Assembly: GCF_014195485.1 (NCBI RefSeq)
Contig: NZ_JACIBU010000002.1
Location: 248,001 to 312,000, forward strand
DNA length: 64,000 bases
Reading direction: 5' to 3'
Source of the DNA: Modestobacter versicolor
GTDB taxonomy: Bacteria; Actinomycetota; Actinomycetes; Mycobacteriales; Geodermatophilaceae
Shown: one piece after another, positions 42,137 to 47,400 of the stretch
How the letters are laid out: every line of letters starts with the position of its first letter
Numbering within the stretch: the first letter of the stretch is position 1
Notes under the pieces: model-generated
Database searches by the model: none
Seen by the model: the letters and a program-made list of their open reading frames with translations, nothing else
What the model was told of the DNA's origin: nothing
Position numbers and translations under genes: made by a program

Positions 42137-42505
42137 TCAGGCGGGCGACCAGACCCCCAGCTCGTTGCCGCTCGGGTCGCTGAAGTGGAACCGCCGTCCA
42201 CCCGGGAAGCCGTAGGGCCCCTGGACGACGCGGCCACCGGCGGACTCGACGGCCGCGAGGGTGCGGTCGAGGTCCGCGGACCAGAGCAGCACCAGCGGGC
42301 CGCCCGGGCGCACGTCGGTGCCCAGGGCCAGGCCGCCCACCTCGCCGTCGCCGGACCGGCTGCGGATCCCGGCGTAGGAGTCGCCGTACGCGGTGAACTC
42401 CCAGCCGAAGGCGTCGGCGTAGAACCGCTGGGCCTCGGCGAGGTCGAGCACGGTCAGCTCGACGTAGTCGATGGCGTGGTGCCGCTGGGCGGCGAGGTCG
42501 GTCAT
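42137..42505 (-). CDS. VOC-family (glyoxalase/dioxygenase fold) protein
   Basis: 122 residues, a single vicinal-oxygen-chelate module pair: HAIDYVELTVLDLAEAQRFYADAFGWEF at the start and VVQGPYGFPGGRRFHFSDPSGNELGVWSP at the end, where the Glu is a typical metal ligand. The substrate is unknown. It lies 26 bases downstream of the mutase gene on the same strand, so it may belong to that transcript, though it is unlike methylmalonyl-CoA epimerase, which is at 49866. Confidence 0.82.
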   Translation of the reverse strand: MTDLAAQRHHAIDYVELTVLDLAEAQRFYADAFGWEFTAYGDSYAGIRSRSGDGEVGGLALGTDVRPGGPLVLLWSADLDRTLAAVESAGGRVVQGPYGFPGGRRFHFSDPSGNELGVWSPA

Positions 42506-42531
42506 GCCGGGCAGGGTGCCCGACGGGTACG

Positions 42532-44217
42532 TCAGAACCGGGCGGGCTCGGTGTAGGTGCCCCACTCCGCGCGCAGGGCGTCGCAGATCTCGCCCAGCGT
42601 CGCCTCGGCCCGGGCGGCGTCCAGCATCGCCGGCACCATGTTCTCCCCGGTCCGGGCGACCTCGACCATCCGGGCCACCGCCGCCCGGGCCGCGTCGTCG
42701 TCCCGCGCCGCCCGCCGGGCGGACAGCTCGGCCCGCTGGTCGGCCTCGACCTGGTGGCTCACCCGGAGGATCTCCAGCTGCCCGTCGACCGAGCCGGTCA
42801 GCGTGTTGACCCCGACGACCTTCTTCTCGCCCTTCTCCACCGCCCGCTGGTAGGTGAACGCGGCCTCGGCGATCTCGCCGGTGAACCAGCCGTCCTCGAT
42901 GCCGCGCAGGATGCCGCCGGTCATGGTGCCGTCGGGCCCCATCTCCCGGATCCGGGTGAAGGTCTCCTCGGCCTGGGCCTCGAGCGCGTCGGTGAGCGCC
43001 TCGACGTACCAGGAGCCCCCGAGCGGGTCTGCGACGTTGGCCACCCCGGTCTCCTCGGCGATCACCTGCTGCGTGCGCAGCGCGATCTGGGCGGCCTTGG
43101 CGCTGGGCAGGGCGAGCACCTCGTCGAGGGCGTTGGTGTGCAGCGAGTTGGTGCCACCCAGCACCGCGGCCAGCGCCTCGACCGTCGTCCGGACGATGTT
43201 GTTGTCCGGCTGCTGGGCGGTCAGCGAGACCCCGGCGGTCTGGGTGTGGAAGCGCAGCTGCTGGGCCTTCTCGGTGCGCGCGCCGTAGACGTCGCGCAGC
43301 CACCGGGCCCAGATCCGCCGGGCGGCGCGGAACTTGGCGATCTCCTCGAAGAAGTCGATGTGCGCGTCGAAGAAGAACGACAGCCCGGGGGCGAAGACGT
43401 CGACGTCCAGGCCGCGGGAGAGCCCCAGCTCGACGTAGGCGAAGCCGTCGGCCAGCGTGTAGGCGAGCTCCTGCGCGGCGGTCGAGCCGGCCTCCCGGAT
43501 GTGGTAGCCGGACACCGAGATCGGCTTGTAGGCCGGGATCTCCGCGGCGCAGTACTCCATCAGGTCACCGATCAGGCGCAGGTGCGGCTCGGGGGCGAAC
43601 AGCCACTCCTTCTGCGCGATGTACTCCTTGAAGATGTCGGTCTGCAGCGTGCCGTTGAGCTCCGACAGGTCCGCCCCCTGGCGCTCGGCGGCGACGAGGT
43701 ACATGCAGAACACCGGGACGGCAGGCCCGCTGATGGTCATCGACGTCGTGGTGTCCTGCAGCGGGATGCCGGCGAACAGCTCGTCCATGTCGGCAGCGGA
43801 GTCGATCGCCACCCCGCAGTGCCCGACCTCGCCCAGCGCCCGCGGGTCGTCGGAGTCGCGGCCCATCAGCGTGGGCATGTCGAAGGCCACCGACAGCCCG
43901 CCGCCGCCCTCGGCCAGCAGCGAGCGGAAGCGCTCGTTGGTCTGCTGGGCGTTGCCGAAGCCGGCGAACTGCCGGATGGTCCAAGCCCGGCCGCGGTAAC
44001 CGGTCGCGTGCAGCCCACGGGTGAACGGGAACTCCCCCGGCCAGCCGATCCGGTCGAAGCCGGGTACGCCCCCCTCGTCGGCCGGCCCGTAGGCGGGCTC
44101 GACCTCCAGCCCGGAGAGGGTGGTGAAGTCGGCGTCGCGCACCCGCCCGGCGGCCAGCGCCGCGTCGTAGCGCTGCTGCCACCGGCTGCGGGCGTCGGTG
44201 CCCGGGGTCTGGGTCAT
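42532..44217 (-). CDS. icmA: Isobutyryl-CoA-mutase-type large subunit (methylmalonyl-CoA mutase family)
   Basis: Adenosylcobalamin mutase catalytic subunit of 561 residues with the TIM barrel only; no C-terminal B12-binding domain, so it needs a separate small subunit not seen here. The blocks TWTIRQ-like AWTIRQFAGFGNAQQTN, GGGGLSVAFDMPTLMGRDSDDP and IFKEYIAQKEWLF fit IcmA. The two residues that separate isobutyryl-CoA mutase from methylmalonyl-CoA mutase (Phe/Gln versus Tyr/Arg) are here F84 and Q202, the IcmA state. So isobutyryl-CoA/n-butyryl-CoA is the likeliest pair, not methylmalonyl-CoA. ATG 44217 is six bases after a TAGTAT -10. A MarR gene lies just upstream. Confidence 0.88.
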   Translation of the reverse strand: MTQTPGTDARSRWQQRYDAALAAGRVRDADFTTLSGLEVEPAYGPADEGGVPGFDRIGWPGEFPFTRGLHATGYRGRAWTIRQFAGFGNAQQTNERFRSLLAEGGGGLSVAFDMPTLMGRDSDDPRALGEVGHCGVAIDSAADMDELFAGIPLQDTTTSMTISGPAVPVFCMYLVAAERQGADLSELNGTLQTDIFKEYIAQKEWLFAPEPHLRLIGDLMEYCAAEIPAYKPISVSGYHIREAGSTAAQELAYTLADGFAYVELGLSRGLDVDVFAPGLSFFFDAHIDFFEEIAKFRAARRIWARWLRDVYGARTEKAQQLRFHTQTAGVSLTAQQPDNNIVRTTVEALAAVLGGTNSLHTNALDEVLALPSAKAAQIALRTQQVIAEETGVANVADPLGGSWYVEALTDALEAQAEETFTRIREMGPDGTMTGGILRGIEDGWFTGEIAEAAFTYQRAVEKGEKKVVGVNTLTGSVDGQLEILRVSHQVEADQRAELSARRAARDDDAARAAVARMVEVARTGENMVPAMLDAARAEATLGEICDALRAEWGTYTEPARF

Positions 44218-44221
44218 GCCC

Positions 44222-44245
44222 AGATACTAGGACGTCCAACTATCT
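44222..44245. promoter_or_regulatory. 24-bp near-palindrome over the icmA promoter
   Basis: The arms AGATACTAGGAC and GTCCAACTATCT meet at a central GGACGTCC; only two of the twelve base-pair positions are unmatched. It covers the TAGTAT hexamer (44224-44229) that lies six bases before the icmA ATG, so binding there would block transcription. The MarR-family gene ends 21 bases upstream and is the obvious candidate binder. Confidence 0.7.
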
Positions 44246-44265
44246 CTGGCCACGACTCCGACGGG

Positions 44266-44775
44266 TCAGTCGTCGGCCACGTCACCGGCGCCCAGCCGGA
44301 CCTTCTTGAGGATGTCGAACAGGGTGTCCAGCTCGCCCTCGCCGACGTCGGCCAGGCCGAAGTCCTGACCGGTGAGCGCCTCGGTGGCCAGCGGGACGAC
44401 GTCCCGGCCGGCGTCGGTGATCGCCGCGAGCACGCCGCGGCCGTCGGCCGGGTTGGGCCGCCGCTCCACGTAGCCGGCGCCCACCAGCCGCTCGATGGCG
44501 TTGGTGACGCTCGTCGGGTGCACCATCAGCCGGCTGCCGATCACCTTCAGCGGCAGCTGCCCGGTGCGGGAGAACGTGAGCAGCACCAGCACCTCGTACC
44601 GGGCGAAGGTCAGCCGGTGCGGCTTGAGCGCCTCGTCGAAGCGGGCGAGCAGGATCTGCTGCACCCGGAACACGCTCGTGGCCGCCCGCATCGAGGCGGC
44701 CGGGCCGAAGCGCTGCTCCCAGGTCCGGGCGGCGCGCTCGATCGGGTCGAAGGGCAGGCCCAGCGGTCGCACCAT
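44266..44775 (-). CDS. MarR-family transcriptional regulator
   Basis: 169 residues with the MarR winged helix: ALKPHRLTFARYEVLVLLTFS, then recognition helix LMVHPTSVTNAIERLVGAGYVERRPNPADGRGVLAAITDAGRDVV (wing). The N-terminal ~35 residues (DPIERAARTWEQRFG) and C-terminal tail form the dimer region. It is immediately upstream of icmA on the same strand, with an operator-like palindrome between, so local control of icmA is the simplest model. The ligand may be an acyl-CoA but this is inference. ATG 44775 lies eight bases after TAGCCT, another leaderless-type start. Confidence 0.9.
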   Translation of the reverse strand: MVRPLGLPFDPIERAARTWEQRFGPAASMRAATSVFRVQQILLARFDEALKPHRLTFARYEVLVLLTFSRTGQLPLKVIGSRLMVHPTSVTNAIERLVGAGYVERRPNPADGRGVLAAITDAGRDVVPLATEALTGQDFGLADVGEGELDTLFDILKKVRLGAGDVADD

Positions 44776-44783
44776 GGCCCCAG

Positions 44784-44789
44784 AGGCTA
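44784..44789 (-). promoter_or_regulatory. -10 hexamer TAGCCT, leaderless-type, marR gene
   Basis: TAGCCT on the minus strand, eight bases before ATG 44775, with no clear Shine-Dalgarno. Confidence 0.45.
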
Positions 44790-44794
44790 GTGGC

Positions 44795-44846
44795 CGCCCG
44801 GTCCCGCCCCCGCCGACCGCCGCCCGGTCCCGCCCCCGCCGACCGC
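44795..44846. repeat. Two tandem copies of a 26-bp unit
   Basis: The unit CGCCCGGTCCCGCCCCCG-CCGACCGC occurs at 44795-44820 and again at 44821-44846, followed by a few bases of a third copy. It lies between the marR promoter and the left flanking hairpin of the DUF559 gene. Probably a recent slippage duplication. Confidence 0.8.
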
Positions 44847-44860
44847 CGCCCGGCGAGATG

Positions 44861-44906
44861 CGCCCGGTCGCGGTGTCCGCCCTCGTGGTCACCGCGATCC
44901 GCCGCG
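44861..44906. repeat. Left inverted-repeat hairpin flanking the DUF559 gene
   Basis: The segment CCGGTCGCGGTGTCCGC, a short spacer, and GTCACCGCGATCCG form an imperfect hairpin. The reverse complement of the right-hand element at 45857 matches most of it (CCGGTCGCGGTGTCCGC and ACCGCGATCCG identical). It stands about 60 bases before the gene. Confidence 0.65.
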
Positions 44907-44968
44907 TCTCGCCGCAGGCCTGTGGACGACGCCCGCGCGCACCCCGGTCGGCGCGGCACGCTGCGCCG

Positions 44969-45844
44969 GTGCCACCGCAGCCCACCCGACCCGCCGCCCT
45001 GCACGGGCGCCTGTTCCGCGGGTCGGCGGCGGTGCGCGACGGCCACCTGACCCAGGCCCAGCTGCGCACCCGTGCCTGGGTGCGGCTCTTCCCCGACGTC
45101 TACGCCTGCGCGTCCCTGCCGGTGACGCACGCACTGCGGGCCACGGCGGCGGCTCGCCTGCTGCTGCCCGGCTCGGTCGTCTCGGGTCGCAGCGCCGCCA
45201 CCTGCTGGAGCGTCGCCGTGGCCGAGCCGGACGACGACGTCGAGCTCCTGGTGCCGACGACGTGCCGCGCCGGTGCGGCGCACGGCCTCCGGGTGCGGCG
45301 GGCTGCGCTGGACCCGGCGGAGGTGCGCAGGCTGCGGGGCACCCCGGTGACGTCACCGGTGCGCACGGCCCTCGACCTGGCGCGGACCCGCCCGCTCGTC
45401 GAGGCGGTGGTGCTCGTCGACCAGCTGACGCAGGGCGGGGTCGCCGACCTGACCGCCGTCCGCAGCGCCGCCACGCTGCTCGCGGGCCGGGACTGCCGCT
45501 GGGTCCGCCGGGTCGTCGCCCTGGCCGACGGCCTCGCCGGGTCGCCCCAGGAGACCCGCCTGCGCCTGCTGATCGGCGACTCGGACCTGCCCGCACCGGT
45601 GGCGCAGCACACCGTGCGCAGCGGAGGGCGCTTCGTCGCCCGTGTCGACCTCGCCTGGCCGGAGCACCGGCTGGGGCTGGAGTACGACGGGCTGTGGCAC
45701 GCCGAGCCGGGCCGGTTCGCCGCTGACCGGCAGCGGCTGAACCGCCTGCTCGCCGCCGGCTGGCGCGTGCTCTTCGTGACCGCGGGCGACCTGCGCCGAC
45801 CTGAGGCGCTGCTCGGCCGCATCGCCGCCGCCCTGGCCGGGTGA
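44969..45844 (+). CDS. DUF559 (VSR/PD-(D/E)XK-like) protein with AbiEi-like N-terminus
   Basis: 291 residues. The N-terminal ~150 residues (HLTQAQLRTRAWVRLFPDVYAC..., VVSGRSAATCW) resemble the AbiEi-type antitoxin/DNA-binding region. The C-terminal ~90 hold a DUF559 nuclease-like fold: GGRFVARVDLAWPEHRLGLEYDGLWHAEP then DRQRLNRLLAAGWRVLFVTAGDL, with D and E-x-D positions typical of the Vsr-like superfamily. Such proteins are abundant in actinobacteria with unknown role. GTG 44969 begins the conserved part. It is unusual in being bracketed by matching inverted repeats, which suggests it arrived as a unit. Confidence 0.78.
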   Translation: MPPQPTRPAALHGRLFRGSAAVRDGHLTQAQLRTRAWVRLFPDVYACASLPVTHALRATAAARLLLPGSVVSGRSAATCWSVAVAEPDDDVELLVPTTCRAGAAHGLRVRRAALDPAEVRRLRGTPVTSPVRTALDLARTRPLVEAVVLVDQLTQGGVADLTAVRSAATLLAGRDCRWVRRVVALADGLAGSPQETRLRLLIGDSDLPAPVAQHTVRSGGRFVARVDLAWPEHRLGLEYDGLWHAEPGRFAADRQRLNRLLAAGWRVLFVTAGDLRRPEALLGRIAAALAG

Positions 45845-45856
45845 CGTCGAGGTACG

Positions 45857-45904
45857 CCGGATCGCGGTGTCGACCTCCGCGGACACCGCGACCGGACGTG
45901 TCTC
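45857..45904. repeat. Right inverted-repeat hairpin flanking the DUF559 gene
   Basis: CCGGATCGCGGTGTCGAC with GCGGACACCGCGACCGG can fold as a hairpin and is the inverted copy of the left element at 44861. It lies 12 bases after the DUF559 stop and before the convergent CrtI-like gene, where it may also act as terminator. Confidence 0.65.
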
Positions 45905-45927
45905 AGCGGGAGACCCCGCCGAGCGGC

Positions 45928-47400
45928 TCAGCTGCGGGGCGCGGGGCGCAGCGGCGGGGCCTTGCGGATGCCGAAGACGTCCCGGAGCGCGACCCGGGCG
46001 GCGTTGTCGCCGCAGTGCCCGTGCACGGCCGGCCCGGGCGGGGTGGCCGCCGAGGCGAGGTAGGTGCCGGTGATCGGCGTCCGGTAGGTGTTCCACCGCG
46101 GCACCGGCCGGGCGAGCATCTGCCGCAGCGACGCCTCCCCGTTGGAGATGTCCCCGCCGACGTCGTTGGGGTTCCAGTGCTCCATCTCCGCGGCGTGCAT
46201 GGTGTGCCGCCCGACGATGGTGTCCCGGAAACCGGGGGCGAACCGCTCGACCTGCGCCTCGATCGCCTCGGTCATGTCGACCGTCGAGCCGTGCGGCACG
46301 TGCACGTACGCCCAGAAGATGTGCCCGCCCGCCGGTGCCCGGGTCGGGTCGACGACGGTCGGCTGGACGGCGAGCACGTAGGGCCTGTCGGCCAGCCGCC
46401 CGTGCGCCGGGGCCGACTCCCCCGCGATCGTCTCCTCGATCGTGCCGGCGACGTGGATCGTGCCGGCCCGGCGCACGTCGGCGTTCGCCCACGGCACCGG
46501 CTCGGAGAGCACCCAGTCGATCTTGAAGACGCCGGGGCCGTGGTGGTAGCGCCGCACCCACCGCCGGTAGCCCTCGGGCAGCTGGTTGCCGGCCATCGCG
46601 ACGAAGGCCCCGGGCGAGGTGTCCAGCAGGACGGCGGGCACCCCGGCGAGCTCGCGCAGGTCGGTCACCTCGTGCCCGGTGACGACCTCCCCGCCCTGCT
46701 GCTCCAGCGCGGTGACCATCGCGTCGGCCAGCTTCTGCGAGCCGCCCTCGATCAGCGGCCAGCCCTGGTGGTGGCTCATCATGCCCAGGAACATGCCCAG
46801 CGCCGCGGTCAGGGGGCGGGTGAGGTCGAGCATCCCGTGCGCGGCGGCGCCGGCGACCAGCGCCTTGCCGGCGTCGGTCTCGAAGTAGCGGTCGGCCAGC
46901 CAGGTGATGTTGGGCAGCCCCTGCAGCCCGAAGCCGGCGATCGCCGGCGCACCGCGCACCGGCAGCCGCCGGAACGCCGAGGTGAGGAAGAAGTCGGTGA
47001 TCTCGTCGGCGTGCCGCAGCAGCGGGGCGAACAGCCGCCGGTAGCCCGCGCCGTCGGCGCCCAGCCCGTCCGCGGTGCGCTCCAGCGAGGGGAACGACAG
47101 CGCCGCCCGGCCGCCGTCCAGCGGGTGGGCGAAGCTGATCTCCGGGTGCACCAGCCGGACCCCGCGCGAGGCCAGGTCGAACTCGCGGAAGAACGGCGCG
47201 GCCGCGGCCATCGGGTGCACCGTCGAGCAGATGTCGTGCCAGTGACCGGGCCGGATGTGCTCCTCGGTGCGCAGACCACCGCCCGCGCGGTCACCCCGCT
47301 CCAGCACCCGCACCGACAGGCCGGCAGCGGCCAGCCGCAGCGCGGCCGCCAGCCCGTTCGGTCCGGCTCCGACGACGACGGCGTCCGGGGTCCCGTTCAC
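45928..47400 (-). CDS. Phytoene-desaturase-like FAD-dependent oxidoreductase
   Basis: 490 residues of the CrtI/FAD amine-oxidoreductase-like group. The dinucleotide motif is AVVVGAGPNGLAAALRLAAAGLSVRVLERGDRAGGGLRTEE; the C-terminal FAD contact is TPPGPAVHGHCGDNAARVAL, with PVPRWNTYRTPITGTYLASAAT before it. It resembles the pyridine-nucleotide-disulphide/retinol-saturase-like branch (PYROXD2-type) more than true carotenoid desaturases, and no carotenoid gene is adjacent. The substrate is unknown. GTG 47400 is the start. It lies 24 bases downstream of meaB. Confidence 0.85.
   Translation of the reverse strand: MNGTPDAVVVGAGPNGLAAALRLAAAGLSVRVLERGDRAGGGLRTEEHIRPGHWHDICSTVHPMAAAAPFFREFDLASRGVRLVHPEISFAHPLDGGRAALSFPSLERTADGLGADGAGYRRLFAPLLRHADEITDFFLTSAFRRLPVRGAPAIAGFGLQGLPNITWLADRYFETDAGKALVAGAAAHGMLDLTRPLTAALGMFLGMMSHHQGWPLIEGGSQKLADAMVTALEQQGGEVVTGHEVTDLRELAGVPAVLLDTSPGAFVAMAGNQLPEGYRRWVRRYHHGPGVFKIDWVLSEPVPWANADVRRAGTIHVAGTIEETIAGESAPAHGRLADRPYVLAVQPTVVDPTRAPAGGHIFWAYVHVPHGSTVDMTEAIEAQVERFAPGFRDTIVGRHTMHAAEMEHWNPNDVGGDISNGEASLRQMLARPVPRWNTYRTPITGTYLASAATPPGPAVHGHCGDNAARVALRDVFGIRKAPPLRPAPRS

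Follow-up and report, generated by a model that had tools for sequence, protein, structure and literature searches.

Introduction

The described systems that come closest to the locus reported here are RAYT genes and their REPs. In the part of Nunvar et al. (2010; PMC2817692) on which we draw, RAYT genes are flanked by two inverted REPs and co-evolve with them; they evolve faster than their neighbours and are linked to the number of cognate REPs. A second paper (PMC3733652), of which we likewise draw on a part, gives REPs a length of 20–40 bp and there reports no dedicated transposase for CGTC-tagged REPs. In its main text, to the extent covered here, the word 'actinobacteria' is absent.

On the side of the protein, two further groups serve for comparison: I-Bth0305I, a nuclease of the EDxHD type, together with Vsr, and AbiEi, the antitoxin of type IV toxin-antitoxin systems. 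We analyzed a window of 64,000 nucleotides (C2:248001-312000) from the 4.59-Mb genome of Modestobacter versicolor, which consists of two contigs (the window genome, G000). An earlier reading of this DNA (the original prediction) had pointed to a small unit between marR and a CrtI-like gene. We place a probability of roughly 60% on the reading that this unit is a single-gene, palindrome-bracketed actinobacterial chromosomal element working like a REP/RAYT system with an unrelated enzyme, whose protein would bind and cut the palindrome and so cause its spread. A search of the open-access literature for a palindrome-bracketed unit of this kind found nothing.

Results

The unit and its palindromes

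The gene of the unit lies on the + strand at 44969–45844 and was defined by its open reading frame, its family matches and an AlphaFold2 model. It has a GTG start and an intact frame for a protein of 291 amino acids, which consists of an AbiEi-like half (residues ~4–187) and a Vsr-like nuclease domain (residues ~190–291). A left palindrome, designated type A, occupies 44851–44914, and a right palindrome (45845–45910) directly follows the stop codon; both were delimited by folding and by their match to each other. Folded as RNA of the + strand, the left hairpin reaches −51.1 kcal/mol (z −6.7) and the right −44.0 kcal/mol (z −3.1). Aligned as direct repeats the two hairpins are 75% identical across 60 nt, and as inverted arms they show 76% complementarity across 66 nt; they match in both senses because each is a palindrome itself.

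To express the match as a score we used the best local alignment between 250 nt of left flank and 150 nt of right flank. At the window site the score is 39.5 (inverted) or 35.5 (direct). The maximum is 30 among 474 control windows, which were cut with identical geometry from the family loci described below and are mostly coding, a feature that favors the units. The matching hairpins before and after the gene that were originally predicted are thereby confirmed. Between the left palindrome and the gene is a conserved upstream motif, CTGTGGACGACG (44920–44931, + strand), recognized by the enrichment of CTGTGGA across family loci described below. The predicted 26-bp tandem duplication beside the left hairpin (44793–44844) is also present, as two exact copies at 44793–44818 and 44819–44844. 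Because inspection by eye found no equivalent in the same intergenic region of seven relatives, the duplication is probably a local accident outside the unit.

The window palindromes open with CGGCGAGATGCG and CGTCGAGG, and palindromes elsewhere with TGATCA and GTTGATC. The hairpins do not occur genome-wide, an outcome that would have spoken against the original prediction: their core pattern accounts for four palindromes in 4.6 Mb, two at the window site and two isolated ones at C1:511229 and C1:2158410. The window genome therefore holds few dispersed copies of its own palindrome, with two related cores. Both isolated palindromes (L049 and L050) carry the TCGCGGTG core seen in the window hairpins and lie near gene ends, and tblastn at E 0.01 detected no relative of the window gene within 7.5 kb of either. 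Another long, almost perfect palindrome, beginning GATGCGCCCCGTTGCTGGGTCC, is found in the window genome at C1:2497224 (L010). In nine loci Rfam gave no match at the gathering threshold; near the window site there were two sub-threshold matches, neither of them on the hairpins.

The encoded protein

Three Pfam families, AbiEi_1, MTES_1575 and DUF559, matched the window protein, all below their cut-offs, and nothing else was listed at E 5. The AbiEi models of PADLOC matched it at E 1.5e-9. Among 41 aligned relatives at E 0.01, DUF559 was found in 37, MTES_1575 in 33 and AbiEi_1 in 12. The AlphaFold2 model of the protein has a pLDDT of 93.2 and a pTM of 0.87. For residues 190–291 of this model, the nearest solved fold is the catalytic domain of I-Bth0305I (Z 10.4, rmsd 2.7 over 93 residues), followed by a Vsr-like protein of Neisseria (Z 9.9) and by Vsr (Z 8.3, rmsd 2.3 over 96 residues), and the sequence profile of the protein matches 3r3p with E 8.4e-5. 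TnsA of Tn7 was considered as a relative of the nuclease domain; it appears in the fold list at Z 5.7, too low to weigh. The nearest fold to residues 4–187 is AbiEi of Streptococcus agalactiae (6y8q), with Z 8.9 but an rmsd of 6.2 over 176 residues. PADLOC, the DUF559 matches in 37 of 41 relatives and the predicted folds thus agree with the DUF559/AbiEi-like gene of Vsr type that had been proposed.

All 41 aligned proteins share E195, D227, E238, H244 and D253 without exception. Within the nuclease domain the invariant order E-D-H-D presumably fits the name EDxHD, and the predicted fold, Vsr-like with conserved acidic and histidine residues, agrees with membership of the Vsr/EDxHD superfamily. 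The protein resembles I-Bth0305I and Vsr in its C-terminal fold and in the order of its invariant E, D, H and D. Unlike them, the nuclease is fused here to an AbiEi-like half, lies outside any intron or split gene and is flanked by complete palindromes. The full length of the protein is assigned to the AbiEi-like and Vsr-like domains, and relatedness to IS200/IS605 (Y1) is absent. The N-terminal half, similar to AbiEi antitoxins, is probably DNA-binding.

Does the similarity to type IV antitoxin AbiEi, which covers the N-terminal half (6y8q, PADLOC), indicate a defense or toxin-antitoxin unit of AbiEi-like, DUF559 kind in which the palindromes are incidental? AbiEi profiles from a defense library do match at E 1.5e-9, and presence is patchy among relatives. 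However, the gene differs from a type IV system in carrying a nuclease domain and a palindrome on either side, and no AbiEii-type partner adjoins it in the window, where its neighbors are marR and a CrtI-like oxidoreductase. Only four plasmid and two phage records match, those from phages over 44% of the protein, and the palindromes are left unexplained. We give this reading almost no credence, and nothing points to the defense-type unit that the original prediction had offered as an option. Carriage as phage or plasmid cargo was likewise rejected, the plasmid and phage records being distant matches; 17 viral contigs match around the nuclease domain only.

Further copies, gains and losses

A search of the window genome with the window protein returned 10 matches, which represent eight further copies because two of the matches are pieces of one frame-shifted copy. 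Beside the score of the window unit, those of the further copies are 47 (C1:956499), 41 (C1:4036296), 40.5 (C1:1274233 and C1:2321044), 35 (C1:2383493), 33 (C1:3986045), 27 (C1:2213285, marginal) and 21.5 (C1:39119, no match). With the left flank shifted by hand for two units, eight of the nine units exceed 26.5, the 99th percentile of the control, so that seven of the eight further copies are palindrome-matched. The originally suggested search for other DUF559 genes flanked by the same hairpins thus turned up matched pairs, and the palindromes of the nine units differ between copies. The paralogue at C1:2383493-2384331 (L045) is frame-shifted and still keeps its matched palindrome pair.

To follow the window site through the genus we used 23 genomes (own included), 21 of which have the CrtI-like neighbor, and read the palindromes at the site by eye. 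The gene is far from being at this site in all relatives: in 8 of the 21 genomes, own included, marR and crtI enclose it together with a palindrome on either flank. One palindrome type occurs in G000, G006 and G019 and another in G002, G008, G017, G018 and G020, and the gene in G006 has a frame shift. Among the remaining genomes, G021 has a decayed gene and a third palindrome type, G022 retains both palindromes and has lost most of the gene, and G015 has neither gene nor palindromes. In G016, G007 and G010 (L080, L081 and L083) marR is about 40 nt or less from crtI, with no mcm in the stretch read, so that these genomes have a different neighborhood. In G001, G003, G004, G005, G009 and G011, mcm, marR and the unit (window 42137–45910) are missing within 10 kb; a thioredoxin-type gene adjoins crtI in G009, and the beginning of that gene can be recognized in the remaining five. 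The contig of G012 stops at the site. The suggested comparison of the junction between marR and the CrtI-like gene yielded no clean empty site among the 20 relatives with a CrtI-like gene. The unit is patchy at the window site, where losses and larger rearrangements are visible and a clean insertion is not. In the seven relatives that bear the unit, identity is 64–78% for the gene, 82–85% for crtI and 91–93% for marR.

A gain is visible at C1:956499. The left neighbor of this copy is present in 20 genomes and the unit in G000 only. In 17 genomes the neighbors are adjacent, without the gene or a matching palindrome, and some of them contain a different short stretch resembling a stem; the site is occupied by other sequence in G008, and G014 ends there. 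The two palindromes of the copy agree in 48 of the 49 aligned bases, loops included. This copy was gained by the window genome alone, as a whole hairpin-gene-hairpin block.

The same site bears on a further explanation, in which the gene is a free-standing homing endonuclease with a palindromic target and repair copies the unit into palindromes that are still unoccupied. The nearest C-terminal fold is indeed the domain of a homing endonuclease, I-Bth0305I (Z 10.4), and the dispersed palindromes described below could be unoccupied targets. Homing splits its target, whereas the units have a complete palindrome on both flanks, and the 17 empty sites at C1:956499 lack a matching palindrome. We regard homing of this kind as very unlikely, and prefer a palindrome-bracketed element working like REP/RAYT.

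At C1:3986045 the right neighbor was found in 20 genomes, of which 12 have the gene, one (G020) has a truncated gene and seven have none. Both palindromes were detected automatically in 9 of the 12 gene-bearing genomes. Among the gene-less ones, G016 retains a solo palindrome; reading by eye identified the gene end and right palindrome in G001, half a palindrome in G018 and in G019 and a left remnant in G012, and no remnants were seen by eye in G014 and G021. Gene loss that leaves palindromes behind is thus seen in G022 at the window site and in G016 at C1:3986045. A separate hairpin nearer the left neighbor of this site is found in genomes both with and without the unit.

Palindrome matches across the family and class

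We scored 79 Geodermatophilaceae loci, drawn from the best 80 of 184 matches, and compared them with two controls. The first was the 474 mostly coding windows; the second set unit flanks of different sites against one another (4452 cross-pairs) and is free of coding bias. The median score of the family loci is 27, versus 17.5 in the control windows. Measured against these windows, which favor the units, 54, 40 and 33 of the 79 loci exceed the 95th percentile, the 99th percentile and the maximum, respectively, and measured against the cross-pairs 58, 40 and 19 do so; 39 of the 79 fall short of the control 99th percentile. Both flanks are strongly palindromic in 32 of 79 loci versus 1 of the 474 windows. 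An earlier left-right test, with 330-nt flanks and orthologous sites ungrouped, had placed 0 of 79 loci above the 95th percentile of cross-pairs because orthologous neighbors inflated the cross-pairs, and was redone with 250/150-nt flanks and grouping. Beyond the family, 148 genomes of the class were sampled, and 106 of them have a match to the gene at E 1e-15. From these, 29 loci were taken as best matches, with no random draw; two were incomplete, and of the 27 scored 23, 22 and 20 exceed 23.5, 26.5 and 30. Among the 40 loci with scores above 26.5, the pair is direct in 18, inverted in 19 and tied in 3.

One interpretation of such matches is that they reflect selection for a single DNA-binding specificity: the palindromes would be sites for the AbiEi-like half, serving autoregulation and, elsewhere, a regulatory or chromosome-maintenance role, while the nuclease acts on another target. 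AbiEi antitoxins recognize inverted repeats within the promoters of their own genes, and the left palindrome and CTGTGGA sit upstream of the gene. CTGTGGA, in either orientation, is found in the 150 nt upstream of the gene at 76 of the 79 loci, against 20 of 1308 among the control windows and none among the 79 downstream flanks; we take it to resemble an actinobacterial DnaA box. Left-right agreement of aligned positions in 28 loci is 0.87 in stems and 0.66 in loops, a difference expected if a bound site is under selection. The operator model does not itself explain the second palindrome at the stop codon, the block gain at C1:956499 or the loop-matched pair there, nor the tens of dispersed copies of near-constant length described below. 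We consider it an unlikely account of the unit.

The palindromes might instead be ordinary bidirectional terminators or insulators, kept alike by general gene conversion and unrelated to the gene they flank. They are strong GC-rich stems at gene ends, and terminators in high-GC actinobacteria often lack T-runs. A search of 44000–47000, around the window site, for the form of an intrinsic terminator, a stem with a T-run behind it, gave 0 sites (shuffles mean 0.4). The separate hairpin at C1:3986045, found with and without the unit, also counts against terminators, as does the lack of a match between flanks of units from different sites. Equal matching around unrelated genes is disfavored by the mostly coding windows and by the unit cross-pairs. 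Together with the co-variation reported next, these points make terminators highly improbable, and we retain the REP/RAYT-like element as the preferred reading.

Concerted evolution and co-variation

Within a genome, left and right palindromes resemble each other more than either resembles its counterpart in other genomes. At C1:3986045 (n=12) the median left-right score within genomes is 37.3 versus 19.8/16.8 for left-left/right-right pairs between genomes. The corresponding medians are 31.8 versus 15.5/14.8 for the window site in the genus (n=8), 25.0 versus 12.5/12.0 for a third site across genera (n=34), and 20.0 versus 13.0/13.5 for the window site across genera (n=23), a set that overlaps the genus set. 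Across these four data sets from three sites, the within-genome medians are about 1.5–2 times the between-genome medians, and random re-pairing gave p values of 0.0002, 0.0076, 0.0002 and 0.0002, respectively. The own partner tops all other hairpins of the site in just 4/12, 0/8, 9/34 and 2/23 cases, because near relatives share hairpin types.

The palindromes also vary with the protein. Protein identity correlates with palindrome similarity at the third site (r 0.68, n=34) and at the window site across genera (r 0.79, n=23), and with neighbor similarity removed the partial Mantel r is 0.59 and 0.72 (p 0.0005 each). This co-variation, in excess of neighbor similarity, is a further point against terminators that are unrelated to the gene.

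Dispersed palindromes

Half-site searches, allowing up to 3 mismatches on both strands and counting gene-flanking copies, were used to find palindromes away from the gene. G086 and G148 belong to a single distant genus, and the palindrome that brackets the gene there (L253 and L247) gave 66/66 half-site matches per strand in G086 and 69/67 in G148. In G119, of the same genus, the gene is present and the 2/2 matches are those of the gene-flanking pair only. The G086/G148 palindrome had 0 half-site matches in G109 and G000, with 0 for the reversed-pattern control. A different palindrome, that of G109, gave 29/23 matches in its own genome and 1/0 in G166; six further genomes and the control had 0. 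Of the few genomes searched, three distant ones (G086, G148 and G109) thus carry a cognate palindrome dispersed in tens of copies. In the window genus, each genome has between 2 and 22 half-site matches to one palindrome type when up to 3 mismatches are allowed. Many of these matches are single, and reversed controls give 0 to 4; G010 has four extra full palindromes among the matches listed.

When lengths of 68–76 nt were admitted, 20 distinct palindromes were obtained from G086, G148 and G119 (gene-flanking ones included), 17 of 72 nt and 3 of 71 nt. They are preceded by C-rich bases and followed by G-rich ones. Target duplications, a mark of DDE-type insertion sequences that the original prediction suggested looking for, did not appear: all 20 of these palindromes, which come from distant genomes, lack a perfect duplication at lengths of 4, 5, 6, 8 and 9 nt. 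These 71-72-nt palindromes (L272–L301) share a conserved asymmetric inner motif, CATCTATCGG. One solo palindrome is present in G148, is reduced to 11 nt in G086 and is absent in G073, and G139 and G058 have other downstream sequence.

Discussion

The unit is not a RAYT, yet it appears to work like one. Set beside the parts of the REP/RAYT accounts used here (PMC2817692, PMC3733652), the likeness lies in a chromosomal gene between two matching palindromes, in the window unit and most, though not all, relatives; in a gene that evolves faster than its neighbors and palindromes that co-vary with it; and in a cognate palindrome that reaches tens of copies in some genomes (G086, G148 and G109), though not in G119, and with two related cores only in the window genome. 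There are also differences. The enzyme is an AbiEi-like and Vsr-like fusion unrelated to IS200/IS605, the palindromes have no GTAG/GTGG head and measure ~50–72 nt rather than the 20–40 bp of REPs, and nine units with different palindromes share the window genome. Orientation is mixed here, whereas REPs around RAYT genes are described, in the part used, as always inverted. The unrelated enzyme and the mixed orientation are why we do not call the unit a RAYT; the flanking palindromes, co-variation and fast evolution are why we compare it to one. With CGTC-tagged REPs, as far as PMC3733652 is used here, the unit shares short dispersed palindromes, but its palindromes enclose a candidate enzyme.

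On the preferred reading, the protein would recognize the cognate palindrome that flanks its gene, whether in duplex form or extruded as a hairpin, and would nick or cut at that site. Subsequent repair or copying might then keep the left and right palindromes alike. Occasionally a whole hairpin-gene-hairpin block would settle at an intergenic site that had lacked it; in some genomes the palindrome would spread on its own. We know of no Vsr-type domain that joins DNA by itself, so full movement would need host repair. Of the possibilities first raised for this locus, a minimal mobile or REP-associated element is the one that gains support, from widespread matched palindromes, co-variation with the gene, dispersed copies and one block gain.

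A broader and more tentative proposal, which we hold at slightly below even odds, is that this is a second, independently evolved REP-type dispersal system across actinobacteria. The AbiEi-like/Vsr-fold fusion would make, homogenize and spread its own palindromes, alone or with the gene and without an HUH or DDE transposase, and one genome could hold several enzyme-palindrome pairs of different specificity.

Many actinobacterial DUF559/AbiEi-like genes have no known role, and a match to the gene is found in 106 of 148 genomes of the class. If these proteins are the enzymes of their cognate palindromes, the family would gain a function, the class would gain a REP-like system for which a candidate enzyme can be named, and biology of the REP kind would have evolved around an unrelated nuclease. 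Given so many enzyme-palindrome pairs, recognition could be tested directly.
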